A stretch of 64,000 nucleotides of DNA from Planctomycetaceae bacterium. Its GTDB lineage: Bacteria > Planctomycetota > Planctomycetia > Pirellulales > PNKZ01. The DNA is taken from the NCBI GenBank assembly GCA_016793115.1, contig JAEUIN010000326.1, positions 1 to 64,000 of the forward strand. Reading direction: 5' to 3'. This document shows positions 20,984 through 44,281 of this stretch, piece by piece (within the stretch, counting starts at the first letter, position 1; each line of letters begins with the position of its first letter). Made by a program: the position numbers and the translations under genes. The notes under the pieces are model-generated. The model did not search any database. It was given only the letters and a program-made list of their open reading frames with translations, and was not told where the DNA came from.

Positions 20984-21717
20984 GGGCGGGCTCCCGTAGG
21001 CGACGCCGTGGCCGTGGGTTTCGGCAGCGTCGGAGCGGACGGGCCGAGCGATGGGCCGGCCATCACGCTCGGTTGGCCGGCCGTCGGAGCGGCGGGCGAA
21101 GTGAGCGCGGGAGACGGAGCGGTCGCGGCGGGAGCCGGCGTGGATGTAGTCGTCGCTGCGCCGGCGGCGGGGGCGGCCGTGCCGGTCGGCGCGGCGGCCG
21201 GCCATTTCGGCAGCCCCGACTTCTCGACGATCTTCATCGCCCGTTCGATCGGAATATGGAGGTGCTTGCGTTCGGCGTCGGCCCAAGCAAATTCTTGCAG
21301 CGCCGCTTCTTGTTCGACGCGCATCTTCGCCATCACCGAAGCCGGCGACTCTTGCAGGTTCGGCGCCGGGGGCGGCGAGCGCTCGCCGGCCCGCAGCGTA
21401 GGCAGCGGACGCTCGGCGGCGATGTCGTCGGACAGCCATTGATACTGGCCGTAGATTACGGCCATCGTAACGACGAGGCTGACGACCATGACGGCCAAGA
21501 ACCAAGCGATGCCCGCGATGCTGACGTCGTTGGAGTCTTGCACCGAGGGGCCGATGTATTCGTCGTCGTCGTGCGGCGACGGCTTGAGCGCCACGCTCGG
21601 CGGGTTCGCCGAGCCGTAGTCGTCGACGACGCCGTCTTCGTCGGCGCCGACGTTCTGCGTCGAGAGATCGACTTCTTCTTCGGGCAGACCGGCGTTGTTC
21701 TGATTTTCGCTCGACAT
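20980..21717 (-). CDS. Single-pass membrane protein embedded in the ACIII-cox operon, unknown function
   Basis: The product has 245 residues: an acidic N-terminal region, one clear transmembrane helix (about 67-90, SIAGIAWFLAVMVVSLVVTM), then a segment rich in conserved-looking residues, PLPTLRAGERSPPPAPNLQ and QEAALQEFAWADAER-KHLHIPIERAM. It ends in a long Ala/Pro/Thr tail. The IPI-x-x-AM segment resembles that of unnamed proteins I associate with ACIII-oxidase clusters. It overlaps both neighbours by one and four bases, so it is co-translated with ActF and SCO. An assembly or linker role is inference. Confidence 0.8.
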   Translation of the reverse strand: MSSENQNNAGLPEEEVDLSTQNVGADEDGVVDDYGSANPPSVALKPSPHDDDEYIGPSVQDSNDVSIAGIAWFLAVMVVSLVVTMAVIYGQYQWLSDDIAAERPLPTLRAGERSPPPAPNLQESPASVMAKMRVEQEAALQEFAWADAERKHLHIPIERAMKIVEKSGLPKWPAAAPTGTAAPAAGAATTTSTPAPAATAPSPALTSPAAPTAGQPSVMAGPSLGPSAPTLPKPTATASPTGARP

Positions 21718-23042
21718 TAGTGCGACCCTCCGGCCGATTCGCGGGGCAAATCGTACTCGTAGGCGGGACGTTGCATCTTCAGATCGAAGAGATACAGTGC
21801 GACGCCGCCGAGCAGCAGCGCCGTACTGACGACGGCTCCGGCGACGCCGAACGTCAGTTCCGAGAAATTCGCCGGCATCACTTGCCAGGTCATGTCGACC
21901 AGACGCATCGCGACGACGCCCAGGGCGATGCGGCCGACGATGCTCGGGGTGCGCTTGTTGCGACGAACCATCAACGAAACGAACGGCGCGGCGTATTGCA
22001 GCAGCACGAGCATCAAGCCGACGATCAGCCAGCCGTGGTCGCTACGTTTTAAGTACCACACGGTTTCTTCCGGCAAGTCGCCGTACCAGATGATGAGGAA
22101 CTGCGAGAACGCCGTGTAGGTCCACAACATGGTGAACGCGAGCATCAAATTGCCGAGGTCTTGGATCGGCGTCGCGTGGTGGCTATGGCCGAGTTCGCTC
22201 TCGCCGGGACCGAGGTGGCGCACATGGCCGTGCGGATTCGGCTCGTGATGCGGATGCTCGGGCGCGACCATCTCGCCGTCGAACTCTCCCATCTTCAAGT
22301 TGTCGCCGCCGCCGAGGCCGACCGCCATCATGACGTGCGACACGATCGAGGTGTTGAAGGCGATCGCCGAGAGGGCTTGGCCGATGACGAAGATGACGCC
22401 GTAGGCGGCGGAGTACCAATGCGGATCAAGCGACATGGCCCAGTCGATCGAGGCGAACGTCATCGACACGCCGTAGAGGCCGATCGCTTGGGCGGAACCG
22501 ACGCGCACGCGACGGGCGGAATCGAACGTCCGCTGTTTGGCGTTGCGGCCTTCCAAGAAGCGGACGTAGGCCGCTAAGAGGAACCACAAGGCGAAGTAGC
22601 CGACGGCCCGCAGTTGGAACCAATGGGTGTTGAGATACGGTTTCTTGAAGTTGAGGATCTTATCGGTTTGGTGCGAGGCAGGCTCGTGTTCGTAGTGAGC
22701 CCACTCGTAGATATTCACGGTGTCGAGCGCGATCGGCACGAACAGCAACGCCATGAGCGGCAGCAGCGACGCGGCGGCGCGGGCCGACACACGCACCTGG
22801 CGGCCCCACTGGCCGCCGGTCAGGTTGTGCAGATAAATAAGAGCCTGCGAGCCGAGTACGACTCCGAGTACGAACAAGTAACCGGCCAGATAAGCCGATA
22901 TGAAAAGCTTGTGACCGCCGGCGGCAAAGGCGACGACGGAGCCGACCGCGCCGACGGCGAGGGCCACAAGCGCGCCTTTGCGCAGGCCGGGCGGAGTTCG
23001 CGGCGCGTCGGCCGGCAAAACGTCGTGAGCGTGAGAACCCAT
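21717..23042 (-). CDS. actF: Alternative complex III subunit ActF (NrfD-like quinol-binding membrane protein)
   Basis: One of the two NrfD/PsrC-like integral subunits of the quinol:cytochrome c oxidoreductase. The 441-residue product has about ten helices, starting ALVALAVGAVGSVVAFAAG and LFISAYLAGYLFVLGVVLGS. It has QALIYLHNLTGGQWG and the ActF-like loop DTVNIYEWAHYE followed by ILNFKKPYLNTHWF. A His-rich loop (HPHHEPNPHGHVRH) lies mid-protein. Start and stop overlap the flanking genes as TAATG on both sides. Confidence 0.9.
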   Translation of the reverse strand: MGSHAHDVLPADAPRTPPGLRKGALVALAVGAVGSVVAFAAGGHKLFISAYLAGYLFVLGVVLGSQALIYLHNLTGGQWGRQVRVSARAAASLLPLMALLFVPIALDTVNIYEWAHYEHEPASHQTDKILNFKKPYLNTHWFQLRAVGYFALWFLLAAYVRFLEGRNAKQRTFDSARRVRVGSAQAIGLYGVSMTFASIDWAMSLDPHWYSAAYGVIFVIGQALSAIAFNTSIVSHVMMAVGLGGGDNLKMGEFDGEMVAPEHPHHEPNPHGHVRHLGPGESELGHSHHATPIQDLGNLMLAFTMLWTYTAFSQFLIIWYGDLPEETVWYLKRSDHGWLIVGLMLVLLQYAAPFVSLMVRRNKRTPSIVGRIALGVVAMRLVDMTWQVMPANFSELTFGVAGAVVSTALLLGGVALYLFDLKMQRPAYEYDLPRESAGGSH

Positions 23043-23689
23043 TACTTCGTCCCCCCGGCGCCGGCGGCGGGAGACGCGGGCTTAGCGGCGGCGGCGTCCA
23101 AGTGCTGTCGTTCTTCTTTCGTGAGCGGAACCGAGGTCATGTCTTCCGGCGTCGCGTAGCGGCTGAGCTGCAACGCGCGAATGTAGGCGGAGATCGCCCA
23201 ACGATCGTCGGTCGAGATTTGTTTGCGATAGCTCGCCATGGCGCCGAAACCTTGCGTCATGACGTCGAAGTAGTGGCCGACGGGCAAGCCGCGCAGCCGA
23301 TCGGTGTGGAACGACGGCGGCTTGAGAAATCCGCGCCGCACGATCATGCCGTCGCCGTCGCCGAGGCGACCGTGGCAGGGCGTGCAGTAAATCGTGAAAC
23401 GCTCTTGGCCGCGGGCCAGCAGCTTGGCGTCGACAGAAAGCGGAATCTCGGTGACGAAGCCGGAGCCTTCACGGCCGGTCTCGCGCGGTCCGTCGACGAC
23501 GGGGCGTCCGCGCGGCACCACGTTCGGCTCGTAAGGGCGAGCCGAGCGGCCGTCTTCGAAGAACGGACTTCCTTCCAGCGGTTCGTATTTCGGCTGATCG
23601 TACATGTCGGAATGACAACCGAAGGCTGCGGCGGCGCTCAAGGCGACGATCAGAAGCGCAGATCGGTACCGGCTGCGGAGCGAAGTCAC
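23042..23689 (-). CDS. actE: Alternative complex III subunit ActE (monohaem cytochrome c lipoprotein)
   Basis: A 215-residue exported protein with a lipobox-like signal (ALLIVALSAAAAFGC, Cys25). One class I cytochrome c domain contains CTPCH (Cys102, Cys105, His106). ActE carries electrons at the periplasmic face of ACIII towards the oxidase. It starts at GTG 23689, overlapping the actD stop (GTGA), and ends in TAATG with actF. The C-terminus is Ala/Pro-rich. Confidence 0.92.
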   Translation of the reverse strand: MTSLRSRYRSALLIVALSAAAAFGCHSDMYDQPKYEPLEGSPFFEDGRSARPYEPNVVPRGRPVVDGPRETGREGSGFVTEIPLSVDAKLLARGQERFTIYCTPCHGRLGDGDGMIVRRGFLKPPSFHTDRLRGLPVGHYFDVMTQGFGAMASYRKQISTDDRWAISAYIRALQLSRYATPEDMTSVPLTKEERQHLDAAAAKPASPAAGAGGTK

Positions 23690-24240
23690 TTATGCACCTC
23701 GCTAATCTGCAGCGGCTTAAATTGCTCGAAGAAGGCGATCACTTCATCCACGTTGAACTTCGGGTCGGCGGCCTGAATCGAAAGGAAAAAGCGGTCGCGG
23801 CTCGCCAGCGTGAACTCCGGACAGTTGAACACCGGGTGATACGGCATCGGCAGACCGTTGAGGGCGAGCATGCCGAGCACCGCGGCGAAGGCGGCGAAGA
23901 GAATCGTGAGTTCGAACGTCACCGGAATGAACGCCGGCCAGCTATGCAGAGGGCGGCCGCCGATGTTGAGCGGGTAAGCGATCACCGAGCAATAGTATTG
24001 GAGTCCGTAGCCGGTCAGGCCGCCGACGACGGCGGCGCAGAACACGAAGCGCGGCAGTCGCGTCGGGCGGAAGGCCAACGCTTCTTCGATCCCTTCGACG
24101 GGGAACGGCGAATAGGCTTCCATGCGCTTGTAGCCGGCCGCGGTGGCCGCACGCGCGGCGGCGACGAGCGCTTCCGGCGTATCGAACGCCGCCATCACGC
24201 CGTAGGTGTCGCGCGGTTTCAGATGTTGTGTAGGTTGCAT
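23686..24240 (-). CDS. actD: Alternative complex III subunit ActD (DUF3341)
   Basis: A 184-residue membrane subunit. It begins with the DUF3341 signature YGVMAAFDTPEALVAAARAA and YKRMEAYSPFPVEGIEEAL. Two transmembrane helices follow (FVFCAAVVGGLTGYGLQYY and FELTILFAAFAAVLGMLAL), separated by the typical GGRPLHSWPAFIPV loop. It packs against the membrane arm of ACIII. It lies 50 bases from actC and overlaps actE. Confidence 0.93.
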   Translation of the reverse strand: MQPTQHLKPRDTYGVMAAFDTPEALVAAARAATAAGYKRMEAYSPFPVEGIEEALAFRPTRLPRFVFCAAVVGGLTGYGLQYYCSVIAYPLNIGGRPLHSWPAFIPVTFELTILFAAFAAVLGMLALNGLPMPYHPVFNCPEFTLASRDRFFLSIQAADPKFNVDEVIAFFEQFKPLQISEVHK

Positions 24241-24290
24241 AAGTGAGTCCGGCCTGCCGAACGGTTGCGTCGGCCGACGCCGGGATTAGA

Positions 24291-25718
24291 TCAATGCTTG
24301 ACGGGCTTGCTCTGGGCGTCGGGTTCGTCGGGCGACATATGTTCGACTAATTCGCGCATTTCGAAGATCGAGATCATCGGCAGCACGCGAATGAAAATGA
24401 ACAGCAACGAAAAGAACAGGCCGAGCGTGCCGATGTACATCGTCCAGTCGTACGTCGACGGGTAGTACATGCCCCACGACGCAGGCAGGAAGTCGCGGTG
24501 CAAGCTCGTCACGATGATGACGAACCGCTCGAGCCACATGCCGACGTTGACGATAATCGAGATCACGAACAGGATCGCCGGGTTGGCGCGAATGCGGTGC
24601 GACCAAAGCAACTGTGGAATCGCGATGTTGCAGGCGATCAACGCCCAGTAGCTCCAGGCGTACGGCCCGAACATGCGGTTGAGCTGCATGTAGGCTTCGT
24701 AGGTGTTGGCGCTGTACCAGGCGAAGAAGGCTTCCATGGCATAGCCGTAGGCCACCATCAGGCCGGTGGCCAACATCACTTTGGCCATGTTGTCCAAGTG
24801 CTTGGCGGTGATGAAGTCTTCGAGGCGGTAGACCTTGCGGATCGGAATCGCCAGCGTCAGCACCATCGCAAAGCCTGAGTAGACGGCGCCGGCGACGAAG
24901 TACGGCGGGAACATCGTGTTGTGCCAGCCGGGAATGACCGATGTCGCGAAGTCGAAACCGACGATCGTGTGCACGGAGACGACGAGCGGCGTGGCAAGCG
25001 CCGCCAACAGCAAATAGGCGGTGTGGTAACGGTGCCAGTGTCGCGCCGAGCCGCGCCAGCCGAGGGCGAGCATGCCGTAGACGAACTGGCTGATCTTGTT
25101 TTTGGCCCGATCGCGGAGCGTGGCCAAGTCGGGCACGAGGCCGACATACCAGAACAGCGCCGACACGGTGGCGTAGGTCGAGATTGCGAACACGTCCCAA
25201 ATGAGAGCGCTGCGAAATTGCGGCCAAATGCCCATCGTGTTCGGGTACGGGAACACCCAGTAGCAGAGCCAGACGCGGCCCATATGGAACAGCGGGAACA
25301 TGCCGGCGCAAGCGACGGCGAACAGCGTCATCGCTTCGGCGAAGCGGTTGATGCTCGTACGCCAGTCCTGACGAACGAGCAACAGCACGGCGGAGATGAG
25401 GGTGCCCGCGTGGCCGATGCCGACCCACCACACGAAGTTGATGATGTCGAAGCCCCAGCCGACGGGAACGTTCAAGCCCCACACGCCGATGCCGGTCGCC
25501 ACGAGGTGGCAGATGGTGTAGAGGAACACCATCAAGAGCATGAACGAGATCGAGAAGCCGATGATCCAGCCGCGCGGCAAGCCCTTCTGCAACACGATCG
25601 AGCTGATGTGATCAGTGACCGTGGCGTAGGTGTGGCCTGGCGCCAAGACCGGCGTGCCGGCGACGGGAATGTCGGCGGAAGCGGCGGTGCTGCTCGTCTT
25701 AGGGGAGTCGGTGGGCAT
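24291..25718 (-). CDS. actC: Alternative complex III subunit ActC (NrfD/PsrC-like)
   Basis: A 475-residue integral membrane protein, the quinol-binding NrfD/PsrC-family partner of ActB. It has about ten helices, with typical ACIII segments FDIINFVWWVGIGHAGTLIS, CAGMFPLFHMGRVWLCYW, FPYPNTMGIWPQFRSALIWD and HWHRYHTAYLL. Acidic and His residues in these helices are candidates for quinol chemistry and possible proton transfer. It lies 20 bases after actB and 50 before actD. Confidence 0.94.
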   Translation of the reverse strand: MPTDSPKTSSTAASADIPVAGTPVLAPGHTYATVTDHISSIVLQKGLPRGWIIGFSISFMLLMVFLYTICHLVATGIGVWGLNVPVGWGFDIINFVWWVGIGHAGTLISAVLLLVRQDWRTSINRFAEAMTLFAVACAGMFPLFHMGRVWLCYWVFPYPNTMGIWPQFRSALIWDVFAISTYATVSALFWYVGLVPDLATLRDRAKNKISQFVYGMLALGWRGSARHWHRYHTAYLLLAALATPLVVSVHTIVGFDFATSVIPGWHNTMFPPYFVAGAVYSGFAMVLTLAIPIRKVYRLEDFITAKHLDNMAKVMLATGLMVAYGYAMEAFFAWYSANTYEAYMQLNRMFGPYAWSYWALIACNIAIPQLLWSHRIRANPAILFVISIIVNVGMWLERFVIIVTSLHRDFLPASWGMYYPSTYDWTMYIGTLGLFFSLLFIFIRVLPMISIFEMRELVEHMSPDEPDAQSKPVKH

Positions 25719-25738
25719 GAGGCTTCGTTAACGCGACC

Positions 25739-28700
25739 TTAGTGTGCGGCTTCGTGGGCATCTTCGTCGGCCGGCGTGTCGGCTTGCGGGCCGACCTGGA
25801 CGACGGCGCCGGTCAGCGACGGATGCGGATTCGTAACATGAGAGAGATAAGTCGTTCGCGGACGGGTGCCGAGTTCTTCGAGCACGCCGTAGTTGCGCGG
25901 ATCGTTCTTGAGTTTCGACACGCGGGAGTTCGGGTCGTTCAAGTCGCCGAACACGATGGCTTGCGAGGAACAGGCCGCTTGGCAGGCGGTGACGACCGCG
26001 CCGTCGGCGATTTTCATCGGCTTGCCGGTCGCCGCCGCTTCCTTCGAAGCTTCGATGCGAGCGTAGTTGATCCGCTGCACGCAATAGGTGCACTTCTCCA
26101 TCACGCCGCGCGAGCGAACGGTGACGTCGGGGTTGGCGACGAGCGCCGCGAGCGGAGAATCGTAGACGGCATACTCCAAGAAGTTGAAGCGCCGCGCCTT
26201 ATACGGACAGTTGTTCGAGCAGTAACGCGTGCCGACGCAACGATTGTAGGTCATCTCGTTGAGACCTTCATTGCTGTGCGTCGTCGCCGCGACCGGGCAG
26301 ACGACTTCGCACGGCGCGTGTTCGCAGTGTTGGCACGCCGACGGCTGAAGAAGCAACTGCGGGTCTTCTTCGCTGCCGGCGAAGTAGCGATCGAGCCGGA
26401 GCCAGTGCATCTCGCGGCCCTTTTCGACCCCTTCGGGACCGACGACCGGGATATTGTTTTCAGCTTGGCAAGCGGTCACGCAAGCGCCGCAATCGAGGCA
26501 GCGCGAAGCGTCGACGACCATGCCCCAGGCCGCCCCCTCGTATTTCCAATCGGGATACATCGAGGCGTGATGCTGCGCGTGCCCCTTCTCGTGCTCGGCG
26601 CCGTCGTGCGATTGGGCCATTTCCGCCGGCGCGACGGCGGCGACCGAGACGACGTTGAGCACGTTGTTCGGATCGCTGAAGTAAGCACGACCGTTCGACA
26701 TCGACGTCTGCTTCGGCGGCGCCTTGAGCCGCTCGGCGATCGTGTTGAGATGGTAAGAGCGGACGATGTCGCGCCCTTCCATGTTGTGGTGGTGTTGAGT
26801 GCAGGGGAGCGCTTGCTTGCCGCCGGTCTTCTTCAGCGTCAGGCCGCGCCCAATCGACATCGCCGCGGCGGTGCGCAGCGGGTAGACGTCGAAGCCGCGT
26901 CCGTCGGCGATCTTCGCGCCGCTGCGCCGGCCGTAGCCGTAGTGCAGCGTGACGGACCCTTCGGCGATGCCCGGGGCGACCCACACCGCTCCGGTCACGG
27001 TCCGTGAGCCAAGCGTGACTTCGACGACGTCGTTGCTTTCAAGGCCGAGATCTTGGGCGCTTTTGGGGCCGATGAGCACCGCATTGGTCCACGTCAACCG
27101 AGTCCAGGTCTTCGGCAACTCCTGCAGCCAGCCGTTTCCGGCGAAGCGGCCGTCCCAAATGGTCGGGTCGGGAGCAAACACGGCTTCCAGAGCCTGCGCG
27201 TCGCCGGAACGTACGTCAGCTTCATTCCACACGTCGGCGGCGACCGGTGTGGCAGTGACGCTGATCGGCTTTGCGGCACTCTCGGCGACGAGGCCGTCGT
27301 GCACGCTCGTACGCCAGAAGGTTTCGAAGTTGTCGCGTCCCGGTTGCCAAGTGGCGCGGACGATATCGTAGGTCGATTCAACGGCGCGGCCCGTCGCGGC
27401 CGACAGGAATTCGTATTCCGTCTTGCCGCGGTAGAGCGGTGCGATGAGCGGTTGCACGATCGAAGCGGTGCCGTCGTAAGCTTTGACGTCGCCCCACTGC
27501 TCAAGGAAATGCGTCGCGGCGATGTGCCAGTTGCAGAGCTGACTCGTTTCGTCGAAGTGCGTGCTCCAATGAGCCGAGAGCCGCTTCACCTTGACGAGTT
27601 GCTTGGCGAAATCGAGGTCGGCGGGAGCGTCGAAAGCCGGATTGCCGCCGACGATGAGCAGAATGTCGACCTGTCCGGCTTCGATATCCTTGCAGAGCTG
27701 CGTGAGCGACGCGACATGGTCGGCCGGGATGTCTTCGACGGGATCGGTGTAGACGACCGTTTGGCCGACGCTGCCGAGTTGCTGATTGAGCGAGTAGGCG
27801 AGCCAGTGGACTTGCCACGGCATGCGATCGCCGGCGATGACGACGCTCGCGCCGCGATTGGCTTCTAGATCCGCAGCGACGGCGTTCAACCAAGCGCCGA
27901 CTTTACCTTCGCCGAGCCACGGAGCCGCGGGCACGCCCCCCTGCCCGCCCACGCGACGGGCGAGTTCCCGAGCGAGTTCGACAATTTGCGTCGGCTTGAG
28001 TGGCAGGCGGTGGTCGGCCGCGCCTCCGGTGCCCGTCGCACTCGACTCGGCTACGTAGAGCCGATTCATCGTCGTCGCGCCGTCGGTCAGGTTGCGGCCG
28101 TCCATGAAGTCGCGCGCGTAGCGGACGCTGCCGTCGACCGACGCGAGGAAGTCGGCGTCGAGCGAGACGACGATCTTGGCTTGCTTGAAGCGATAGACCG
28201 GGGTCACCGAACGGCCGAAGGCCCGCTGTTGGGCGCGAAAGGCTTCGTCGGCGTGCGTCGGATCGTACTGATGACGACGCGATTCCGGGTATTGCTGAGC
28301 GAGCTCGCGCAATTGACGAGCCAAGGTGGGCGAGACGACCGATTGCGTCAGAATGCGCAGGCCGGCTCCGCCCGGCTTCAATTCCTGAAGAGCGTTGCGC
28401 AGGTCGAGGAGATACGCTTCCCAGGTGGCGATTTCACCAAGCTTGCGCACGGTTTGCGATCGTTCGGGATCGTAGAGCCCGAGCACCGCGGCTTGAGCGA
28501 CGGCGTCGGTGGCGCCGAGCGACGCCGGGTGCAGTTGATTGCCTTCGATCTTCGTGGGGCGGCCGTTGTGGCTTTCGGCCAGAAGACCGATGGTGCGGCC
28601 TGAAAAGCTCATTGCGGTGGCGAAAAACACCGCGTCGCCCGAGACGCCGTATTCCGGCATCTTCGAATAAGGGACGATTTGCTCGGGCGGTTGGCCGATG

Positions 28701-28903
28701 CAGCCGGTAAACGAACTCGCCACTCCGGCCAGGGCCAGCGAAGCTCCGAGGCGGCCCATGAATTCGCGCCGGTCGATGCCCGCGATGTAGCCCGACGCGT
28801 CGATCGACGGCGCTGCTGGAACGGCCGGTGCGTCGCCGCGAGCCTCTTCAAGGCTGCGCCAGACGGTCGAACCGCTTGAAGTTTGCGACGAAGCCGGCGT
28901 CAT
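25739..28903 (-). CDS. actB: Alternative complex III subunit ActB (molybdopterin-oxidoreductase-like plus Fe-S domains)
   Basis: A fused peripheral subunit of about 1054 residues, exported by a Tat-like signal (DRREFMGRLGASLALAGVAS). The N-terminal two thirds resemble molybdopterin oxidoreductases, though ACIII members are known to lack the cofactor. The C-terminal ferredoxin-like part has the cysteine clusters CLDCGACVTAC, CQHCEHAPCEVVC, CVGTRYCSNNC, CTYCVQR and CQAAC, enough for about four Fe-S clusters. They form the electron wire from quinol towards the haems. The start at 28903 (MTPASSQTSSG) is chosen because the upstream open frame is low-complexity. Confidence 0.95.
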   Translation of the reverse strand: MTPASSQTSSGSTVWRSLEEARGDAPAVPAAPSIDASGYIAGIDRREFMGRLGASLALAGVASSFTGCIGQPPEQIVPYSKMPEYGVSGDAVFFATAMSFSGRTIGLLAESHNGRPTKIEGNQLHPASLGATDAVAQAAVLGLYDPERSQTVRKLGEIATWEAYLLDLRNALQELKPGGAGLRILTQSVVSPTLARQLRELAQQYPESRRHQYDPTHADEAFRAQQRAFGRSVTPVYRFKQAKIVVSLDADFLASVDGSVRYARDFMDGRNLTDGATTMNRLYVAESSATGTGGAADHRLPLKPTQIVELARELARRVGGQGGVPAAPWLGEGKVGAWLNAVAADLEANRGASVVIAGDRMPWQVHWLAYSLNQQLGSVGQTVVYTDPVEDIPADHVASLTQLCKDIEAGQVDILLIVGGNPAFDAPADLDFAKQLVKVKRLSAHWSTHFDETSQLCNWHIAATHFLEQWGDVKAYDGTASIVQPLIAPLYRGKTEYEFLSAATGRAVESTYDIVRATWQPGRDNFETFWRTSVHDGLVAESAAKPISVTATPVAADVWNEADVRSGDAQALEAVFAPDPTIWDGRFAGNGWLQELPKTWTRLTWTNAVLIGPKSAQDLGLESNDVVEVTLGSRTVTGAVWVAPGIAEGSVTLHYGYGRRSGAKIADGRGFDVYPLRTAAAMSIGRGLTLKKTGGKQALPCTQHHHNMEGRDIVRSYHLNTIAERLKAPPKQTSMSNGRAYFSDPNNVLNVVSVAAVAPAEMAQSHDGAEHEKGHAQHHASMYPDWKYEGAAWGMVVDASRCLDCGACVTACQAENNIPVVGPEGVEKGREMHWLRLDRYFAGSEEDPQLLLQPSACQHCEHAPCEVVCPVAATTHSNEGLNEMTYNRCVGTRYCSNNCPYKARRFNFLEYAVYDSPLAALVANPDVTVRSRGVMEKCTYCVQRINYARIEASKEAAATGKPMKIADGAVVTACQAACSSQAIVFGDLNDPNSRVSKLKNDPRNYGVLEELGTRPRTTYLSHVTNPHPSLTGAVVQVGPQADTPADEDAHEAAH

Positions 28904-28985
28904 GCGAAATACCTTGCCTGCGGCCGGCGGCGTGCGGCCGAGCGGCGATGAGTTGGAAAGTGCGACATCGACGAGAAGTCCGACA

Positions 28986-29630
28986 TTAGTAGTGACACGC
29001 CGAGCAGGTCGTGGGATTACGAACTTGATACTTTTCGATAAGAACTTGTTGGCCTTTGTCGTCCGGCGTCTCCGACGCGAGTCGGAACACGTCGCTGCGC
29101 GGGCGGATGTGCTCTTCCGGCGAGCGGTGACAATCAAGGCACCAGCGCATGTGCAGCGACGAGGTGCGCCAAGTCAGCGGCATCTTGTCGATGCGGCCGT
29201 GGCAAACCACGCAGCCCATGCCCTTAGCGACGTGAATACTGTGATCGAAATGCACGAAGTCGGGAACGTCCGTCACGCGGGTCCACTTCAGCGGTTTATT
29301 CGTCGCGAAGCTCTCGCGAACGGGCGCCAGCTTCGGGCTGTCGGACCAAATCTGCGAGTGACAGTTCATGCAGATTTCGGTGGCCGGAATGCCGGCGAAC
29401 GGCGAGTTCTCCACCGAGGTATGGCAGTAGCGGCAGTCGAGGCCGAGACCTGAGACGTGGTGCTCGTGGCTGAAATCGACCGGTTGGGTCCGCACGACGT
29501 ATGCTTGCGTGGCGTAGTCCGAGGTCGTGATCATGTAGATCAGACCGAGTGCGCCGGCGGCGGCCAGCAGCGCGCCAAAAATCGTCGCTCGAGAGACGAC
29601 GTTTGTAAGCGGATGAAACAGCTGCGACAT
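28986..29630 (-). CDS. actA: Alternative complex III subunit ActA (pentahaem cytochrome c)
   Basis: The first gene of the respiratory operon. The product has 214 residues with an N-terminal membrane anchor (about 14-36) and five CxxCH haem motifs: CRYCH (66), CMNCH (87), CVVCH (140), CLDCH (164) and CSACH (209). Additional His residues (HEHHVS, HFDHSIHVAKGMG) can be distal ligands. ActA passes electrons from the Fe-S subunit to ActE. The MSQLFHPLTN start at 29630 is the family-like one; the frame is open 53 codons further upstream without convincing coding character. Confidence 0.94.
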   Translation of the reverse strand: MSQLFHPLTNVVSRATIFGALLAAAGALGLIYMITTSDYATQAYVVRTQPVDFSHEHHVSGLGLDCRYCHTSVENSPFAGIPATEICMNCHSQIWSDSPKLAPVRESFATNKPLKWTRVTDVPDFVHFDHSIHVAKGMGCVVCHGRIDKMPLTWRTSSLHMRWCLDCHRSPEEHIRPRSDVFRLASETPDDKGQQVLIEKYQVRNPTTCSACHY

Positions 29631-30287
29631 GGATGACGGCGCTGGGGTGTTGCTCGCGGCGACGTCTGCACTTGTCGTGCCGTGCGTGATCAACTCACGC
29701 CGTCGCTGCGACGATGAACTCTCGAACCGATACGAACGACGAACCGCAAAACGCAAAGAGCGGACGGCCCGAGGGCGCTCGATCTTCACTTGAACTCATT
29801 CTTGTCGCGAACGCGATTTCGTCGCCGTTGGGCCCGCAAAAAGCGGATTCTCGATCACGGACGGCCGGAATCGTTTGCGCGTCGTACTCACCTTCTGGAG
29901 AAGGGCCGTACGAAAAGTTCCTTGTTTACCAGCGCCGGTATTCCGTCCGCATCCGCCGAATGGCGGAGTGTCTGCCGAAAATTCCTAAATCCTCCCTGCG
30001 CGCGTCTTAAGCAAGTGCTCGGAGATGACGGAAGTGCCGAGCGGGCGCGCGGAAATTCGCCGTAGAGCGAATCGCCTATCTAGGATCGACAATACGATTG
30101 CAAGCGACGTACGTAGGCCGAGCGCGCTCGCAATGAATCGACGCAGAGCGAAATACTAATGTCGCTCGCAAAAGTCCGCAAGGGAGCGCTCGCGCGAGTC
30201 GGACGCCGCATTACGGCTTGACAAAATTGCAATGCGAATTCCGCGCAGCGTCATGACGAGATGCAAAGCTCGCTGCGCCGCGCGACG
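29631..30287. other. Leader and promoter region of the ACIII-cox operon, no gene seen
   Basis: About 650 bases with only short Arg-rich frames. It must hold the promoter of the twelve-gene minus-strand operon and the 3' end of the upstream redoxin-fusion gene. The least bad promoter-like match on the minus strand is a TTGCGG/TAGTAT pair at about 30150-30182, with a 17-base spacer; it would give a leader of roughly 500 bases. CGCTCGCAA occurs twice in about 40 bases (near 30127 and 30163). No tRNA or riboswitch fold was recognised. Confidence 0.35.
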
Positions 30288-32405
30288 TTAAGTTTTACGT
30301 TGTAGAAGAATCCGCAGCTTTTCGAATTCGCTCGTATTGAGCTTGCCGTCGCCGTCGGAATCGAAACGCTTAAAAACTACATCGACGATCTGTGGATTTT
30401 CTTTAACCTTCGCCAAGTTTGCGGCGGCCAAGCGAAGTTCTTCGCAGGAGACGCCGCCGTCGTCGTCGGTGTCGCACCGACGAAATAGCGCTCGCGCGAC
30501 CGCTTCACCGGACACGGCACCTCGCGCGCCGCCGCCGCCGCCGGCGCTGCGCTCCGGAAGGGCCTCGCCCGGCTTGGCGTCGGGCACGATGTACTCGACG
30601 TAGCCGAGATGCATTTCGTCGTAGGTCTGCGCGCCCCAGCGAACCGTCTGCGTCGGATCGGGATTGGCCGGGTTGCCGGCGCTGTTGTCGTACCAAGCGG
30701 TGAAGGAAAGCACGTCGCCGCGCGCGAACTTCTTCGGTTCCGCATAGCGGTAGGCAAGTTGCCAATTGAAATCGTAGCGCGGTATGTCGAGCAGGTTTTG
30801 TTCGCCGGCTTTCGTGGTCGCATCGTAGCGGCAGGCTTTGCCGCGCAGGTGCATATGCGGCAACAGCGCGAGCACTTCGACGTCGTGCGGGATTCTCAAT
30901 TGCGCGGTTTCGCGGTGGTTCGCCTCGCCGGGCGGAATGCTGATCCGCGCGTTGACGATGCCGGCGACGCGGACCTCATGTCGGGGCGGTTCCTCGGCGA
31001 ACACGAGTCCGATTTCCGTCTTGTCTTCCGTCGCGGCGCCGTTGGGCGTGTAATGCATCTGAAATCGCAGCACGGTCCCTTTCGGCAAACGCTTCGCGAG
31101 CCCGGCGGGATAAATGATCGAACTGTTGCCCGGAACGTAAATCGCCCAGTAGCCGTCGCGTCCCTCTTGTTGATCGTCGGCCGCCACGGACGCGTCGTCG
31201 GCCCCATGCACGAAAACCAGGACGTGGTGCACGACTTCGCGATTGCCCGGCCGAATTTCGACGGCCCGCACCCACTTGTCTTCCGGCAACTTCGTCTCGA
31301 CGAGGATGTTTTGATACGGCATCGTGCCCGTTGCTTTGATCGCAACCGGTTTGTCGAACGAGAAGATCGCATCGGGCTTACCGATCGACCAGTCGGAAGC
31401 GAAGCGTCGCGTCACGGGGGCATCGGCTTCATCGCCCAGGGGACGTTCTCCGGCCAGCCACTCCAACAGTGCGGCCTCGTCGTCGGGGGAGAGCGAGCGA
31501 TCGTTCGCCCAGACGAGTTCCTGTTCCGATTCGCTCGAAGTCGACTTGGCGTCGGGCGCGGCGAACCAGGGCGGCATCGTGCCCCTCTCGACGACTTGGC
31601 GAATCATCGGCGCGTGGGCCGCGAGGTCGTCGGCCGTGGTGAGCGAGAACGGCGCCGCTCCGCCGTCGCGATGGCACTCCGCGCAATGACGGTCGACGAT
31701 GCGCGAGATCCGATTGTGATAGGTGACGGAGTTGTCGTGCGCTTGATCAAGCGGTCGCTCGGCCGATGCCAAGACGCAGCCGGGAGCGTCGGTCGCGGCG
31801 ACCTCGGGCCGCATGTTCGCGAGCGACGCTTCTAGGGCGTCGGCCAAGTAGCGACGCCGCGGCGCGTCGAGCGAATAGCCGAAGCCGTATTGATCGTCGA
31901 TCGCGCCGTGGTAGACGACCGTGCGGGCGGCGTCGACCACGACGACGTCGGTCGTCGTCCGCGCGCCGATCGCGGCGGACAACGCTTCGTCGGCATCGTG
32001 AACGTAGGTCGTTCCGGCCGGAAACTTTCCGCGCGCCGCGCGCATCGCCGCGACGTCGTCGCTCGACATGGGATTGATCAAGACAAAGCCCACGTCGCGC
32101 GCGGCCGTGTCGGCGGACAGCTTCTCGAGCGTCGGTAAATACTTTTTGCTTAGCGGGCACGAAGTGCTCGTGAGCGCCAGCACCGTCAGGCGGCGGCTCT
32201 TCGCGATTTGCCCCAACCGAAGTTCTCGGCCGTCGAGGTCGCGAATCGCAATGTCGGGCAGCATCCGCCCGATTCCTCGCTCCAAGGGATTGAGCAAACG
32301 CGGACCTTGGCGAAGGTCCGCAGCAGGAGTCGATGCGTCGCTCGGCGCGGCGCAAGCGAAGGCGGCGCAGACGAACGCCGGCGCAAGGCGATAGACGGGC
32401 ATCAT
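30288..32405 (-). CDS. Exported redoxin / cytochrome c / copper monooxygenase-like / EF-hand fusion protein
   Basis: A 705-residue exported protein (signal about 1-24) with four parts. Residues 45-195 form a redoxin domain with a single active-site-position Cys (TSCPLSKKY, Cys83). Residues 225-300 hold one haem motif CAECH (241-245) with a likely Met277 ligand. Residues 330-610 resemble the peptidylglycine hydroxylating monooxygenase fold, with His393-His394, His451, His517, His519 and Met598 (DEMHLGYVEY) matching its two copper sites. Residues 640-700 carry two EF-hand loops (DTDDDGGVSCEE, DSDGDGKLNTSE). Substrate unknown. A single Cys suggests that the redoxin is not a classical disulfide reductase. 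Confidence 0.82.
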   Translation of the reverse strand: MMPVYRLAPAFVCAAFACAAPSDASTPAADLRQGPRLLNPLERGIGRMLPDIAIRDLDGRELRLGQIAKSRRLTVLALTSTSCPLSKKYLPTLEKLSADTAARDVGFVLINPMSSDDVAAMRAARGKFPAGTTYVHDADEALSAAIGARTTTDVVVVDAARTVVYHGAIDDQYGFGYSLDAPRRRYLADALEASLANMRPEVAATDAPGCVLASAERPLDQAHDNSVTYHNRISRIVDRHCAECHRDGGAAPFSLTTADDLAAHAPMIRQVVERGTMPPWFAAPDAKSTSSESEQELVWANDRSLSPDDEAALLEWLAGERPLGDEADAPVTRRFASDWSIGKPDAIFSFDKPVAIKATGTMPYQNILVETKLPEDKWVRAVEIRPGNREVVHHVLVFVHGADDASVAADDQQEGRDGYWAIYVPGNSSIIYPAGLAKRLPKGTVLRFQMHYTPNGAATEDKTEIGLVFAEEPPRHEVRVAGIVNARISIPPGEANHRETAQLRIPHDVEVLALLPHMHLRGKACRYDATTKAGEQNLLDIPRYDFNWQLAYRYAEPKKFARGDVLSFTAWYDNSAGNPANPDPTQTVRWGAQTYDEMHLGYVEYIVPDAKPGEALPERSAGGGGGARGAVSGEAVARALFRRCDTDDDGGVSCEELRLAAANLAKVKENPQIVDVVFKRFDSDGDGKLNTSEFEKLRILLQRKT

Positions 32406-32767: not shown

Positions 32768-35062
32768 ATGTCTTCATTGGCCCGCGCCGCCGTGTTGGCG
32801 GCGATAGTCGGTTATATCGTTTCGCAACCTTGCCCGGTCGTCGCCCAAGCCCCGGCTCCGATCGGGGCGGATCCAGGCGAGGTGCTCACGCGCGGGCCGA
32901 TCCATGAAGCGTTCGCCGTACCGGTCGGGTTCGACCCCGCGGTCGGCGCAGTCATCACGAGGGAGCCGCCGGCGGACGTGGAGGAACTTCCGCCGGAAGT
33001 TTCCCCCGACGACCCGAATGCGATCTGGATCGGCGGCTATTGGGTCTGGGACGACGAACGTAACGACTTTATCTGGATTAGCGGCGTGTGGCGCGTGCCT
33101 CCCCCTGATCATCGCTGGGTGAGCGGCTATTGGACGCAAGTCGAAGGCGGATTTCAGCGGATCGCCGGCTTCTGGTCGCCGCTTGATACGCGCGTCGTCA
33201 ATTATGTGCCGATGCCGCCCGAAAGCTTAGAGGCCGGGCCTAATGCGCCGGCTCCCGGCGACAATTACTTCTGGGTCCCCGGCCAATGGGTCTGGGCGGA
33301 CGGACGTTACGCGTGGCGCGGCGGCTACTGGGCTCCTTCGCAAACCAATTGGGTCTGGATACCCGCCACGTATTACTACACTCCGCGCGGCTGCATCTAC
33401 AGCGCGGGCTATTGGGATTATCCGTCATGGTCGAGTCGCGGCATGATGTTCGCGCCCGTCTACTTCCAACCTGCCGTCTATGCTCAACCAAATTTCCGTT
33501 ACGCGCCGCGCGTATTGATTGCGGCGACCCAAGTGCTCGTGCATCTGTTCGCGCGGCCGAACTACGGGAGCTACTACTTCGGCGACTACTACGGCAATCA
33601 ATACGCCGGAGCCGGCTACTATCCGTGGTTCGCGGCGGCAAACGTGAACCGCGGAGCCGGTTGGTACGATCCGTTCTACGTCTACCAGCGAACACATTAC
33701 GGCCGGACCAATCCGAATTGGCTCGACGACTATCGTCGGTCGTACACTTACTTCGCGTCGAACCAAGACGCGCGCCCGCGACATACCTATGCGGAACAAC
33801 GCCGCTTCGCGGAGCGGAACAACTTGCGCGACATCGATTTCTCCAAGGTCGGCTTGCAACAAGCGAATCCGATTCAAACGACGATCCTCGGAGTAGCATT
33901 GAACGACGCCGTCAGCAATCAGTCGCTTGCGAAGCAGATTCGTAAGGTCGACGAACGACAGCGCGAAAGCTGGCAAAAACGCTCGCAAGAGATCAAGCAA
34001 TTTGCGAAGCAACAACGGCTTGATGTTGAAACTAGGAGTGCCGGAAGCGTCGCTCTCGATGGGGCCGCCGGCCGCGGTCCAGGATCCCGTCCCGATCCTA
34101 ACGCCCGCCCCGATGCCCAACGCCGCGCGTCGGTCGAACCGCAGGCCGCGCCGTCGCTGCAGCTGCCGGAAGTGACTCCCGAAGTCGCCGCCGCGGCGAA
34201 GCCGGCGGGCGGTGAAGCACCTCCGCCGAAGGATGCAGCGCCGAATCCCAGCCCGGATCGCCCGCAGCCTGATGTCGGTCGCGTCCCAGGCCGCGGGCCT
34301 AATGAGAACGTTGGCAACGGTCGCGGTTCTGATCCCTCGCGCGTCGGCGGGCGGCCGCCGCGCCCCGGCGAACCGGACCGAACGAATTTGAACTTGCCGC
34401 CTCGTGATGCGACCGCGACGCCCATTCCCGGTACCGGCGATACCGGAACCTCGCGGCCCGTCGAAATGCCGCGTGTGACCGACAACCCAAGCATTCGACC
34501 GCCTGAGGCGGGAAGCCCAAACGTGCCGCCCGGCACGCCGTCGCCGAGCGATCGAGTTCAACGCGGTAATCGGGCCGGCAGCCTTGAGCCGGGGGAGCCG
34601 CGCCAAGACCTGCCGCGGAATCCGGCGGGCATGGTTCCGCCGGGCCAAACGCCTGGTGCTGCCGTGCCGCCGGGGCCGGGAAGCGGTTCGCGAGCGCGAG
34701 TCAATGCGCCGGGCGGCTCCATTCCTAACGCCGTGAATCCCGCTGAACTTCCTCCGGGCCTCCGCAAGCAGATGGGACGAGGGCAAGCCGATCCGCCGGG
34801 AGATCGTAGTCCGCCGACCGGCACGCGGCCCCCGGCACTAAATTCTCCGCCGCAAAGTAATCTGTCGACGGGCGGATTTCCGCCGGGGCAGCAACGCAAA
34901 CGCGAAGGTCGGCCGCCTCAGGCGGGACCGAAATCGGAATCGGACCGCGGTCCGCCTCCCCGAGCCGCAGCGCCTAGCGATAACGCGCCTTCTCCGAGCG
35001 GGGCTCGACCCGATAAGAAGAAAGAAAAAGACAAGGAAGAAAAAGAAAAGAAGAAGAAATAG
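32768..35062 (+). CDS. Exported YXWXPGYW-repeat protein with proline-rich tail
   Basis: The product has 764 residues. A signal peptide (about 1-27, SLARAAVLAAIVGYIVSQPC) is followed by at least seven aromatic repeats of the WxxGxW type (IWIGGYWVW, IWISGVWRV, RWVSGYW, RIAGFW, FWVPGQWVW, AWRGGYW, YSAGYWDY). A Tyr/Asn-rich region comes next, then about 350 residues of Pro/Gly/Arg-rich disorder ending in a Lys/Glu run. YXWXPGYW proteins are common in planctomycetes and thought to be surface or periplasmic; their function is unknown. GAGGA at 32756-32760 supports this ATG. Two stem-loops follow the stop. Confidence 0.85.
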   Translation: MSSLARAAVLAAIVGYIVSQPCPVVAQAPAPIGADPGEVLTRGPIHEAFAVPVGFDPAVGAVITREPPADVEELPPEVSPDDPNAIWIGGYWVWDDERNDFIWISGVWRVPPPDHRWVSGYWTQVEGGFQRIAGFWSPLDTRVVNYVPMPPESLEAGPNAPAPGDNYFWVPGQWVWADGRYAWRGGYWAPSQTNWVWIPATYYYTPRGCIYSAGYWDYPSWSSRGMMFAPVYFQPAVYAQPNFRYAPRVLIAATQVLVHLFARPNYGSYYFGDYYGNQYAGAGYYPWFAAANVNRGAGWYDPFYVYQRTHYGRTNPNWLDDYRRSYTYFASNQDARPRHTYAEQRRFAERNNLRDIDFSKVGLQQANPIQTTILGVALNDAVSNQSLAKQIRKVDERQRESWQKRSQEIKQFAKQQRLDVETRSAGSVALDGAAGRGPGSRPDPNARPDAQRRASVEPQAAPSLQLPEVTPEVAAAAKPAGGEAPPPKDAAPNPSPDRPQPDVGRVPGRGPNENVGNGRGSDPSRVGGRPPRPGEPDRTNLNLPPRDATATPIPGTGDTGTSRPVEMPRVTDNPSIRPPEAGSPNVPPGTPSPSDRVQRGNRAGSLEPGEPRQDLPRNPAGMVPPGQTPGAAVPPGPGSGSRARVNAPGGSIPNAVNPAELPPGLRKQMGRGQADPPGDRSPPTGTRPPALNSPPQSNLSTGGFPPGQQRKREGRPPQAGPKSESDRGPPPRAAAPSDNAPSPSGARPDKKKEKDKEEKEKKKK

Positions 35063-35341: not shown

Positions 35342-36790
35342 ATGCTCACCGTTTATGGCGGTTTCGATCGCCTGTGCTCGGGTATTTCGCGGCGCAAATT
35401 GCTGCAGGTCGGCGGGGCCGGGTTGTTTGGTCTGACGCTCCCCAAGGTGCTCGCGGCTGAAGAGCTCCACCACGCCGGGGGCGGCTCGCCGAAGCCGAGG
35501 GCCAAGAGCGTGATCTTCCTGCTGCTCTACGGCGGGCCGAGCCAACTCGAAACGTTTGACATGAAGCCCGACGCGCCGAGCACGCTGCGCGGGCCGTTTC
35601 AGCCGATCGCCGCGCGCACGCCCGAGTTGCGCATCAGCGAACACTTGCCGAGGTTGGCAGCGGCAAGCGATAAATTTTGCGTCGTGCGTTCAATGACGCA
35701 TCCATACAACGACCACAGCACGGCGGGCCATTACATTCAAACAGGTCGGCCGTGGCACGTACCGATCGGGGCCGGTTTCAACGCTACGAGCAAAGATTGG
35801 CCGGCGATGGGCTCGATCGTCGAATACATGGAGCAGCGTCGCGGCCGGCTGCGCGACGTCCCCAACTACGCCTACTTGCCGAATCTACTGGGCCACCTGC
35901 AAAAGTTTTCCACGCGGCTTGATCGGCCCGGCGGCTACGGCGGTTGGCTCGGTCGCGGCTACGATCCGCTGGCGACCGACATCAAGAAGCGAGATCCCGA
36001 CGACAATCCTTACTTCCGCAATTGCACCGACGACGAACTCGACTACCGCATCAAAGGCTTATCGAGCGACGGTGAGATGACGCTCGACCGACTCGACGGC
36101 CGCCGCTCGTTGCTGGAACAGTTCGACGTCGCGCGGCGCGGCATCGAAGCGAAGCCGGCGGGCATCGACTCGTACGATAAGTTTCGGCATCGCGCGCTCG
36201 CGCTCGTGAGCTCGCCGAAAACCCGCGACGCGCTCGACATTCGGCAAGAATCGGCCGCAATGCGCGATCGCTACGGCCGGCATCTGTTCGGCCAATCGGT
36301 GCTCGTCGCCCGCCGGCTCGTCGAAGCCGGCACTCGATTCGTGACCGTCGCTTGGGACACGCCCAACGGCTACTCCTGGGATTCTCACATCAACGCCGAC
36401 GATCAACGCGACTTTTTGCTCCCAGGCCTCGATCAAACGCTCTCCGCTCTGCTCGAAGACTTGGAGCAACGCGGCTTGCTGGATGAAACGCTCGTGGTTT
36501 GCTGCGGCGAAATGGGACGCACGCCGAAAGCCGGCAAGAACTGGGGACGCGGTCACTGGAGCACGTTGTTTCCGGCGATTCTCGCCGGGGCAGGCGTTCG
36601 CGGCGGCACGTTATATGGAGCCAGCGATCGCGACGCCGCCTATCCCGTCGAAAAGCCGACGTCGCCCGAAGACCTTGCGGCGACGATCTTCACCGCCTTA
36701 GGCATCGACCCTGCGCAACGCATCCACGATCCGCAAGGCCGCCCGGTCGCGCTGACCGACGACGGCGAATCGCTGCCGATCTTCGGATGA
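35342..36790 (+). CDS. Tat-exported DUF1501 protein
   Basis: A 482-residue member of the sulfatase-like DUF1501 family, abundant in planctomycetes. The N-terminus carries a twin-arginine signal (SRRKLLQVGGAGLFGLTLP). The body has typical segments VIFLLLYGGPSQLETFD, VRSMTHPYNDHSTAGHYIQTG, LDETLVVCCGEMGRTPKAG and GHWSTLFPAILAGAGVRGGT. The fold resembles alkaline phosphatase and sulfatase enzymes, but no activity is established. It usually pairs with a DUF1549/DUF1553 cytochrome; here it stands alone, while a second DUF1501 gene in this window (44282) has the partner. Confidence 0.92.
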   Translation: MLTVYGGFDRLCSGISRRKLLQVGGAGLFGLTLPKVLAAEELHHAGGGSPKPRAKSVIFLLLYGGPSQLETFDMKPDAPSTLRGPFQPIAARTPELRISEHLPRLAAASDKFCVVRSMTHPYNDHSTAGHYIQTGRPWHVPIGAGFNATSKDWPAMGSIVEYMEQRRGRLRDVPNYAYLPNLLGHLQKFSTRLDRPGGYGGWLGRGYDPLATDIKKRDPDDNPYFRNCTDDELDYRIKGLSSDGEMTLDRLDGRRSLLEQFDVARRGIEAKPAGIDSYDKFRHRALALVSSPKTRDALDIRQESAAMRDRYGRHLFGQSVLVARRLVEAGTRFVTVAWDTPNGYSWDSHINADDQRDFLLPGLDQTLSALLEDLEQRGLLDETLVVCCGEMGRTPKAGKNWGRGHWSTLFPAILAGAGVRGGTLYGASDRDAAYPVEKPTSPEDLAATIFTALGIDPAQRIHDPQGRPVALTDDGESLPIFG

Positions 36791-40342: not shown

Positions 40343-40446
40343 GCCGCCGGGCGACGTTCCCGCCTCCGTCCGTCGTCGCATTAGTTATCCCGATGCTGCG
40401 GCGGCTCCCGCCCTGCCCTACCTCTAGACGTTCAAAGGCCCTGCCG

Positions 40447-43400
40447 ATGAAACGTATGCTCGCGCTGTTGCCGGCGATGCTTTTTTCGTTCGTCGCCGCC
40501 GCCGCTTCCGCCGCCCCCGCGGTCTCCTGGGAGTTTGGCCAAGAGGAACAATCGCCGCTGCTGGCCCACGGCGGCGTCACCCGCGACATTCCCGGCCCGC
40601 GTCCGCCCGAGTATCCCGATTTCGATTCGGGCAACACGGCCGTGAAGTTTCCCGGCGGCGGCGCTTACTTCTCGTTCGCCGACACCGGCGCGAAGAGCCC
40701 GCTCGACTTCACCAACGGCGACTCAATCACGATCGAGGCTTGGGTAAAGATCGACGAGATCAAAGACAACGAAAACCTCTACGTCATCGGGAAAGGCCGC
40801 ACCGGTTCCCCCGGCTTCGCCGCCGACAATCAGAACTGGGCTCTGCGGCTTCGCGGGCTGAAAGGCAAAGCCGCGGTGAGTTTCCTCTTCGCGACGACCC
40901 CCGCCGCGGGCGTCACCAAGAGCGACGCCCACTGGCATCGCTGGACGACGTTTGAAGGCTTCCCGCCGAAAACCGGTTGGCACTACGTGGCCGCGACGTA
41001 TCAGTTCGGCAAGCCGGAGAGCGTGCGCGGTTGGATCGACGGCAAGTCGCTGCCCGGCTTTTGGGACATGGGCGGTGCCACCGCTGAGAAGCCGGTGACG
41101 GACGACGATGCCGTTTGGATCGGTTCGTCGCAAGGGGGCCGGTCGAGCAACAGCTTTCGCGGCACGCTCGATTCGATTGCCGTCCATCGCGCGGTGCTCG
41201 ACGACAAGACGTTGGCGAAGCGCTTTCGCCGAGTCGGCGAACCGGTCGCCGCGAAGCCGGCGAAAGAGGTGATGCCGGATCTCGGCGCGCTGCCGCCCGG
41301 GCGCGTGCTCGTGACGTTCGCCGAAGGAATGCCTGCCCACAATCGTTGGCTCAACGACGATGAAAAATGGCCGCGCGAGTCGTTGCGCTACGACTCGGGC
41401 GAGTTCCTGCTGCCGCGCTTGCCGGTGAAGTACGACGAATGGGGCATTCGCGATGCCTGGAAGGCTCCGGTCTTGGTCCGGCTCGCGGCCGACGTCGCGT
41501 TGCCGCCGGGCAAACGTACCTTTTTGCTGCGCGCTCGCGGCCAAAGTCGGTTGTGGATCGACGGCGACGTCGTGGCGCGTACGAAAGCGATCGCCGGTTC
41601 GCCGAGCGGGGAGGAAGACGTCACGCCCGTCGCCCAGCCGCCGTTGCCGGGATTGCGCTCGGCTGAGCACCGTTTGCAGGAAGAATTCGGCGAGTTCGAA
41701 GTGCCCGCCGGCGGCAAGTGCCGCGTGGTGCTCGAAACGCTCGCCGGCGGCGAGAAGTTTCGCGCCGAACCAGGCGAGTTGACCGTCGCCGTGAAGTCGG
41801 TCGACGGCGACTCCTACGAGATCCTTCAACCGGTCGGAACGACCGCCGCGCCGCTGCCGCTGAAGGATGCGGCCGTTGAGGCCGCGCTGGTGCGCATCCA
41901 AGCCGATCTCACGGCTTACGACGATTTCCGCCGTCATCAAGCCGCGGCGAGCCGCGAAGCGTACTGGGAGAAGCGTCGCACCGCCGCGCGCGATTGGGCC
42001 GAGAAGCATCCCGCCCCGCCGGTGCCGTCGACCAAAAGCGGCGCGAAGCACCCGATCGACGCCTTCGTCGCCGCGAAGATCGAAAACGCTTTAGCCGCGC
42101 AGGCCGAAACCTCGCCGGCGGACGCCGAGCATTTCCACTCGAATGTGTTGCCGATCCTTCGCAACCAGTGTTTCCGCTGCCATGGCGACAAGGTGCAAGG
42201 CGGCCTACAACTCAACTCGCGCGAAGCGCTGTTGAAAGAGGGCGATTCCGGCATGCCGGCCGTGGTCGCCGGCGACGCCAAAGAAAGCGAGTTGATTCGC
42301 CGCATTCGCGCCGAGAGCGAGGACGAGCGCATGCCGCCTGTCGGCAGCGGCTTGAAGGCGGCGGATATCGCGACGCTGGAGAAATGGATCAACGACGGCG
42401 CCGAGTGGCCCGCCTTACCGCTCGCCCCGCAGCAAACGACCTACTCCGCGCCGTTGAACGACGCGGCGTTTCTGCGCCGTGCGTATCTCGACGTCGTCGG
42501 CCTCGTGCCGACCGAAGCGGAAGCCCTCGCATTCTTACAAGATCGCTCGGCCGACAAGCGCGAGAAGTTGATCGACAAGCTCCTGGCCGATCCGCGGCGA
42601 GCCGATCACTGGGTCGGCTATTGGCAAGACTTGCTGGCCGAGAACCCGACGCTGATCAACGCCACGCTCAACAGCACCGGCCCCTTCCGGTGGTATCTCT
42701 ACGATTCGCTGCGCGACGACAAGCCGCTGGATCGCATGGTGACGGAATTGATGATGCTCCGCGGCGGCGCGCACGACGGCGGCAGCGCCGGGTTCGGGCT
42801 GGCGGCTCAAAACGACGCGCCGTACGCCGCGAAGGGACAAGTCGTCGCGGCTTCGTTCCTGGGATTGGAATTGCAGTGCGCTCGTTGCCACGATTCGCCT
42901 TACCACAGCACGAAGCAGCGCGACTTGTATTCGCTGGCCGCGATGTTCGGCCGCGCGCCGACGACCGTGCCGAAGACGAGTTCGGTGCCCGCCGCGTTTT
43001 TTGAGAACAAAGCGCGCGAATCGCTGATCAAGGTGACGCTCAAGCCGGGCGAACCGGTGGAGCCGAAGTGGCCGTTCGCCGCGGTCACCGGCGCGGCCGA
43101 CGACAAGACGCTCGACGCCTTATGTGAAAAGCCGACGGATACGCGCGAGCGGCTCGCGGCTCTGGTCACCGCGCCGCAGAACACTCGTTTCGCGCAAGTG
43201 GTCGTCAATCGCATCTGGCGGCGATATATGGGGGCGGGCATCGTCGAGCCCGCCCACGATTGGGAGGGAAAGGTCGCGAGTCACCCGCAGTTGCTGGAGT
43301 GGCTGGCGCATGAATTCGTCGCCCACGGCTACGACGTGAAGCACGTCGAGCGGCTGATTCTCACGTCGCAGGCCTATCAGCGCGAAGCGACGGGCGACAA

Positions 43401-44169: not shown

Positions 44170-44187
44170 GGATCCTAATGTCCGCCT

Positions 44188-44259
44188 GTAGGGAACGCCC
44201 TCCGCGGCGTTCCGGTACGTGGTCTATCGCTTGAGGAACGCCGCCGAGGCGTTCCCTAC
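44188..44259. repeat. Inverted pair of GGAACGCC hairpins
   Basis: GTAGGGAACGCC (44188-44199) is the perfect reverse complement of GGCGTTCCCTAC (44248-44259). Each half is itself a hairpin (GGAACGCC with GGCGTTCC around a six- or five-base loop). It lies between two co-oriented genes, so any termination would be partial. Confidence 0.8.
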
Positions 44260-44281
44260 CGAGTCAACCGAGAGCCTTATC

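Follow-up and report, generated by a model that had tools for sequence, protein, structure and literature searches.

The textbook examples of uncoupled dicopper hydroxylases, PHM and DBH, are known mainly from eukaryotes and depend on ascorbate. Both need two one-electron reductions, for which ascorbate is the donor in animals, and the route by which electrons cross the ~11 Å from the CuH to the CuM site is still debated. DBH carries a DOMON domain, and its ascorbate is recycled by a separate cytochrome b561. A haem-linked copper oxygenase system is known from cellobiose dehydrogenase and LPMO. The bacterial family related to PHM and DBH that is considered here is large and apparently unstudied; no published study of it was found among the open-licence papers covered. 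A paper on double-jelly-roll capsids lists PHM as a double-jelly-roll family widespread in eukaryotes (PMC8812541); like a paper on NHLRC2 (PMC6107167), it serves as context only.

The gene analysed lies in a window of 64,000 nucleotides (positions 1 to 64,000 of contig JAEUIN010000326.1 from a Planctomycetaceae bacterium), to which the coordinates given without a locus identifier refer. The gene is on the minus strand, the original prediction having given no strand. Its product is probably an exported, PHM/DBH-fold dicopper monooxygenase equipped with a haem electron donor of its own, a function deduced from sequence comparison and predicted structure. Pfam recognizes a Redoxin/AhpC-TSA domain (residues 48-167, E 4e-11), Cytochrome_CBB3 with a weak match (residues 234-280) and an EF-hand pair (residues 636-697, EF-hand_7 E 3e-10) with two canonical 12-residue Ca loops; the extents and the functional residues are listed in Table 1. 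Every residue named in the original prediction (Cys83, CAECH 241-245, the five His residues and Met598) was found at its predicted position, an agreement far beyond chance. Promoter and terminator scans gave nothing informative.

Table 1. Position of the fusion gene and of its domains and functional residues in the window.
Feature	Positions	Strand	Basis or remark
Whole gene, redoxin - cytochrome c - PHM-like - EF-hand fusion	30288..32405	-	705 aa, ATG start, stop codon included
Probable export signal, residues ~1-24	32334..32405	-	hydrophobic; pLDDT <50 at residues 7-18; putative
Thioredoxin-fold redoxin domain, residues 45-213	31767..32273	-	Pfam Redoxin/AhpC-TSA, Foldseek, profile
Cys83, nucleophile-position Cys in CPxS	32157..32159	-	conservation
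Cys210, second conserved Cys, GC motif at redoxin/cytochrome junction	31776..31778	-	conservation
Mono-haem cytochrome c domain, residues 226-320	31446..31730	-	weak Pfam Cytochrome_CBB3; family occurrence
Haem-binding CAECH, residues 241-245	31671..31685	-	C, C, H invariant
M277-P-P-W, probable axial Met of haem	31566..31577	-	invariant; axial role putative
PHM/DBH-like double jelly roll, residues 322-612	30570..31442	-	profile match and model
His393-His394 (PHM H107, H108; CuH)	31224..31229	-	invariant; aligned to PHM
His451 (PHM H172; CuH)	31053..31055	-	invariant; aligned to PHM
His517-x-His519 (PHM H242, H244; CuM)	30849..30857	-	invariant; aligned to PHM
Met598 (PHM M314; CuM), in DEM	30612..30614	-	84/84 readable rows; aligned to PHM
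EF-hand loop 1, DTDDDGGVSCEE, residues 645-656	30438..30473	-	Pfam EF-hand_7, EF-hand_1
EF-hand loop 2, DSDGDGKLNTSE, residues 682-693	30327..30362	-	Pfam EF-hand_1, EF-hand_6

Relatives were collected by one scan of bacterial genomes, which yielded 80 proteins (44-61% identity) from Planctomycetota, Verrucomicrobiota, Armatimonadota and one MAG labelled Actinomycetota; the alignment, paralogues included, comprises 85 sequences. In a close-match survey of Planctomycetota (E <1e-60) the protein was present in 112 of 294 genomes, and a PHM-profile survey found matches in 52 of 118 genomes. The PHM-profile matches total 12 and 8 in two of the genomes, each of which contains a tandem run of three PHM-fusion genes (L131, G153:C46, and L132, G110:C233, respectively). 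Close homologues (57-61% identity) occur in two of the three same-genus genomes searched. The organism's own genome has three further PHM-domain genes (L128, L129 and L130, on C404, C81 and C154), one of which encodes a cytochrome and a PHM domain without a redoxin.

Cu2_monoox_C (PF03712) is a borderline match for residues 502-606 (22.4 bits, cut-off 23) and scores 25.7 bits in the genome scan; the N-terminal domain of the superfamily (PF01082) has no Pfam match in the protein or in 40 relatives, a weak one being present in the paralogue L083. Since this model misses them, family members are likely named by their redoxin alone. A PDB search with residues 331-451 as a single sequence returned no match. 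A profile of residues 322-612, in contrast to the single sequence, retrieved human DBH (4zel, E 6e-8) and rat PHM (1opm, E 1e-5) and aligns the six ligands with their counterparts in both. Two AlphaFold2 models, a full-length one (pLDDT 88.9, pTM 0.82) and one restricted to the PHM region (pLDDT 90.8, pTM 0.86), have PHM/DBH as their best PDB fold matches in Foldseek (E 1e-12 to 1e-14), the PHM-region model giving TM 0.68/0.66 to PHM at E 1e-12. Between these predicted models and PHM the global TM is 0.6-0.7 with an rmsd of ~5 Å; the fold is thus shared, while the two jelly rolls may be arranged differently to each other than in PHM.

His393, His394, His451, His517 and His519 are invariant in the 85-sequence alignment, and Met598 is absent only where the end of a contig cuts the row. 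The PHM-like fold and the complete set of six ligands, both claimed in the original prediction, are thus borne out by the first rank of PHM/DBH in the fold search and by the invariance of the aligned residues; the missing fold match that was named there as a refutation did not occur. In the wider PHM-domain set the CuM ligands are invariant except in truncated rows and in L192 (G088:C40), a weak PHM-profile match without copper ligands, which is possibly a degenerate or diverged copy. The position of PHM Gln170 is occupied by Gln449 (Gln in 77/104 rows), and that of PHM Tyr318 is aromatic in most of the 104 rows. A two-jelly-roll PHM fold together with complete CuH and CuM ligand sets, as predicted here by model and alignment, is what characterizes the PHM/DBH superfamily, and the protein would be expected to bind copper.

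The resemblance to PHM probably does not extend to its substrate. In the profile alignment the carboxylate anchor of PHM, Arg240, is aligned with Leu515, no Arg is conserved at this position among the 104 members (the commonest residues being M, T, F, A, G and S), and Pfam detects no domain of a lyase partner (PAL, NHL beta-propeller) in the protein. Leu515 and the lack of a PAL/NHL domain speak against peptide alpha-hydroxylation, the reaction of PHM proper. The designation "peptidylglycine-monooxygenase-like" is consequently right for the fold but not for the substrate; with no conserved Arg at the Arg240 position, "peptidylglycine" is here the name of a fold. No gene neighbour pointing to a substrate was found at the loci examined.

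The planctomycete PHM-domain ORFs (n=104) fall into 73 with redoxin, cytochrome and PHM domains, 29 with cytochrome and PHM only, and two with PHM alone, of which one (L117) is a contig-end fragment and the other (L159) is a disrupted copy whose truncated redoxin lies in a different frame. The cytochrome, present in 102/104, is near-obligatory; with the redoxin in only 73/104, the haem is the constant partner of the copper domain in Planctomycetota. The C, C and H of CAECH and the MPPW motif are invariant in 85/85 sequences of the near family and in all 102 cytochrome domains of the wider set, so that the features of a c-type cytochrome (CxxCH and a distal ligand) can be recognized in the sequence, Met277 being the putative axial ligand. 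Of the new results this near-obligatory cytochrome is the strongest, and the idea of a haem-fed copper enzyme draws its main support from it, although the linkage is an association and not proof of electron transfer. Of the "self-contained electron supply" suggested earlier, the haem part is plausible and strengthened by these counts, but an essential part for the redoxin is not supported, since 29 ORFs combine cytochrome and PHM without one.

We propose that CuH (His393, His394 and His451) would receive electrons singly from the covalently attached haem c, which would be held by Cys241/Cys244, His245 and probably Met277 and have periplasmic or respiratory carriers as its own electron source. 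CuM (His517, His519 and Met598) would bind O2 and hydroxylate a C-H bond of the substrate, which is probably not a glycine-extended peptide. PHM and DBH need two electrons, delivered singly, and a haem c in the same chain could plausibly take the place of ascorbate; with hardly any family member lacking the haem domain, these bacteria may feed from haem the copper sites that animals feed with vitamin C. The redoxin would be a helper thiol module with two Cys residues (Cys83/Cys210), dispensable in part of the family and perhaps removing peroxide or preventing the oxidation of Cys or copper sites, and the EF hands would be interchangeable surface or attachment modules. More tentatively, the family may represent a class of dicopper monooxygenases widespread in bacteria, with a covalently attached c-type haem in place of ascorbate as one-electron donor and with a C-H substrate that is attacked, possibly together with the secreted esterases encoded next to some members; we consider this wider picture quite possible.

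The redoxin had been predicted to be of the one-Cys type, which the family contradicts. Cys83 is found in 84/84 readable relatives and Cys210, near-invariant alongside it, in 84/85 rows of the near family; in the wider redoxin set (73 rows, the query included and some of them cut short) the counts are 67/73 and 61/73, respectively. The redoxin profile matches 2ywi, 2cvb and 3u5r (E 3e-36 for 2ywi, to 6e-34) with both Cys aligned, and the same three are fold matches in Foldseek (TM 0.77-0.81 of target). The peroxiredoxin motif PxxxTxxC is absent from the domain, there being no Pro at -7 from Cys83. Identity as a one-Cys peroxiredoxin is ruled out by Cys210, by the missing motif and by the thioredoxin-like nature of the nearest solved proteins, and the conserved, aligned Cys pair marks the domain as a two-Cys thioredoxin-like module. 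The same Cys pair occurs in stand-alone redoxins of the organism's own genome.

The redoxin could alternatively be a maturation module (ResA/CcmG or TlpA-like) that holds the CxxCH or the copper site in reduced form so that cofactors can be loaded, and has no role in turnover. ResA is indeed among the next fold and profile matches, and the redoxin is dispensable in the family; the best matches, however, belong to the CP...GC family (2ywi, 2cvb, 3u5r) and not to the CxxC type of ResA, which leaves this role somewhat unlikely. Such a role would account for nothing but the redoxin and does not conflict with the haem-fed monooxygenase that we favour.

A different direction of electron flow is suggested by the genes next to the fusion gene. 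Downstream of it, on the same strand and after a gap of ~0.5 kb, lies a gene set resembling alternative complex III (20983-29789, minus strand), composed of a multihaem cytochrome c7-like protein, a long Fe-S protein with a Tat-like start, an NrfD membrane subunit and the following genes, two of whose products have no Pfam match. The haem could accordingly be an electron exit or a docking cytochrome of a dehydrogenase- or oxidase-like protein that passes substrate electrons to the respiratory chain, which would suit a near-obligatory cytochrome. PHM chemistry, however, consumes electrons, and neither this gap nor the absence of the arrangement even from the nearest relatives (L001, L002) favours such an exit, which we regard as improbable. 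A functional link to the complex-III-like genes as a general rule was rejected because no relative shares the neighbourhood; as none of them keeps the gene order, the neighbourhood is not used as evidence here. No family-wide conserved operon was found when sought across the loci of the relatives.

Other neighbours recur in parts of the family. On the other side of the gene, a divergent, secreted-looking protein of 764 aa (32768-35059, plus strand) contains repeated units rich in Tyr/Trp and is not matched by Pfam; a homologue lies at the same place in L001 and L002. It is followed by a DUF1501 protein (35342-36787) and a PSCyt1/DUF1549/DUF1553 and DUF1501 pair (40393-45568); in L001 and L002 the copper monooxygenase gene has a pair of this type directly downstream. 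Neighbours of the secreted esterase or beta-lactamase type (clusters c7, c10, c20 and c21) are common to only some of the Pirellula-like and Opitutae loci, and gene clusters are shared between one Pirellula-like and one Opitutae locus. Secreted esterase, beta-lactamase-type and EF-hand hydrolase genes stand beside or near the monooxygenase gene at L003:10007-16392, L034:6080-12763, L006, L009, L012, L046 and L070. The esterase and hydrolase neighbours, taken as raw co-occurrence, hint at a possible catabolic role.

It could also be argued that the PHM domain is a peroxygenase for which the redoxin sets the H2O2 level at the active site, a two-Cys thiol domain being fused to it in 73/104 members. 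The 29 members that keep the haem without a redoxin, and a redoxin that lacks the peroxiredoxin motif and is closest to thioredoxin-like proteins rather than to peroxiredoxins, make this very improbable.

The two C-terminal EF hands had been taken to suggest calcium regulation. By motif, EF hands are located at the C-terminus in 34, at the N-terminus in 29, at both ends in 10 and at neither in 12 of the 85 sequences, and this position label changes at least 25 times on the tree. As they move between the termini or are missing, calcium regulation is not supported as a property of the enzyme, and a swappable attachment or surface module fits them better than calcium control of catalysis. Some genes adjoining family members also encode EF hands. 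Least likely of all is a non-catalytic protein of PHM fold that binds copper and haem and acts as a sensor, metal store or adhesin, a reading which EF hands, a probable export signal and the lack of a substrate-binding Arg might suggest, but which is at odds with two copper sites, a single Met ligand and a DEM motif that are invariant across several phyla, as expected for catalysis.

We favour, then, a haem-fed dicopper monooxygenase. The PHM/DBH type itself is already known; what is new is a dicopper oxygenase of this type with a built-in haem c domain, the putative donor. If the haem is the donor, we know of no self-reducing PHM/DBH-type enzyme described before; such a protein would be a soluble system in which electron delivery can be followed optically by a reporter that is already built in, and would reveal how PHM/DBH-type chemistry is driven where ascorbate is lacking. 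Proteins of this kind are present in ~40% of the sampled planctomycete genomes.

Compared with PHM (1PHM, 1OPM, 3MLL), the planctomycete protein has the same double jelly roll, the three-His CuH and His-His-Met CuM sites in register, the Gln before the third CuH His and the DEM motif followed by an aromatic residue; it differs in its low identity (~17%), in having no equivalent of Arg240 and no PAL, and in its fused haem c, redoxin and EF hands. DBH (4ZEL) is the best sequence-profile match and joint best fold match, with the same six ligands, and is set apart by the c-type haem that the planctomycete protein holds within the same chain. The redoxin domain resembles the CP...GC two-Cys thioredoxin-like proteins 2YWI, 2CVB/2YWO and 3U5R, which are stand-alone and not fused. 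The nearest working analogy is that of cellobiose dehydrogenase and LPMO, where a haem protein is the one-electron donor to a copper oxygenase, albeit with another fold, a b-type haem, separate proteins and one copper.
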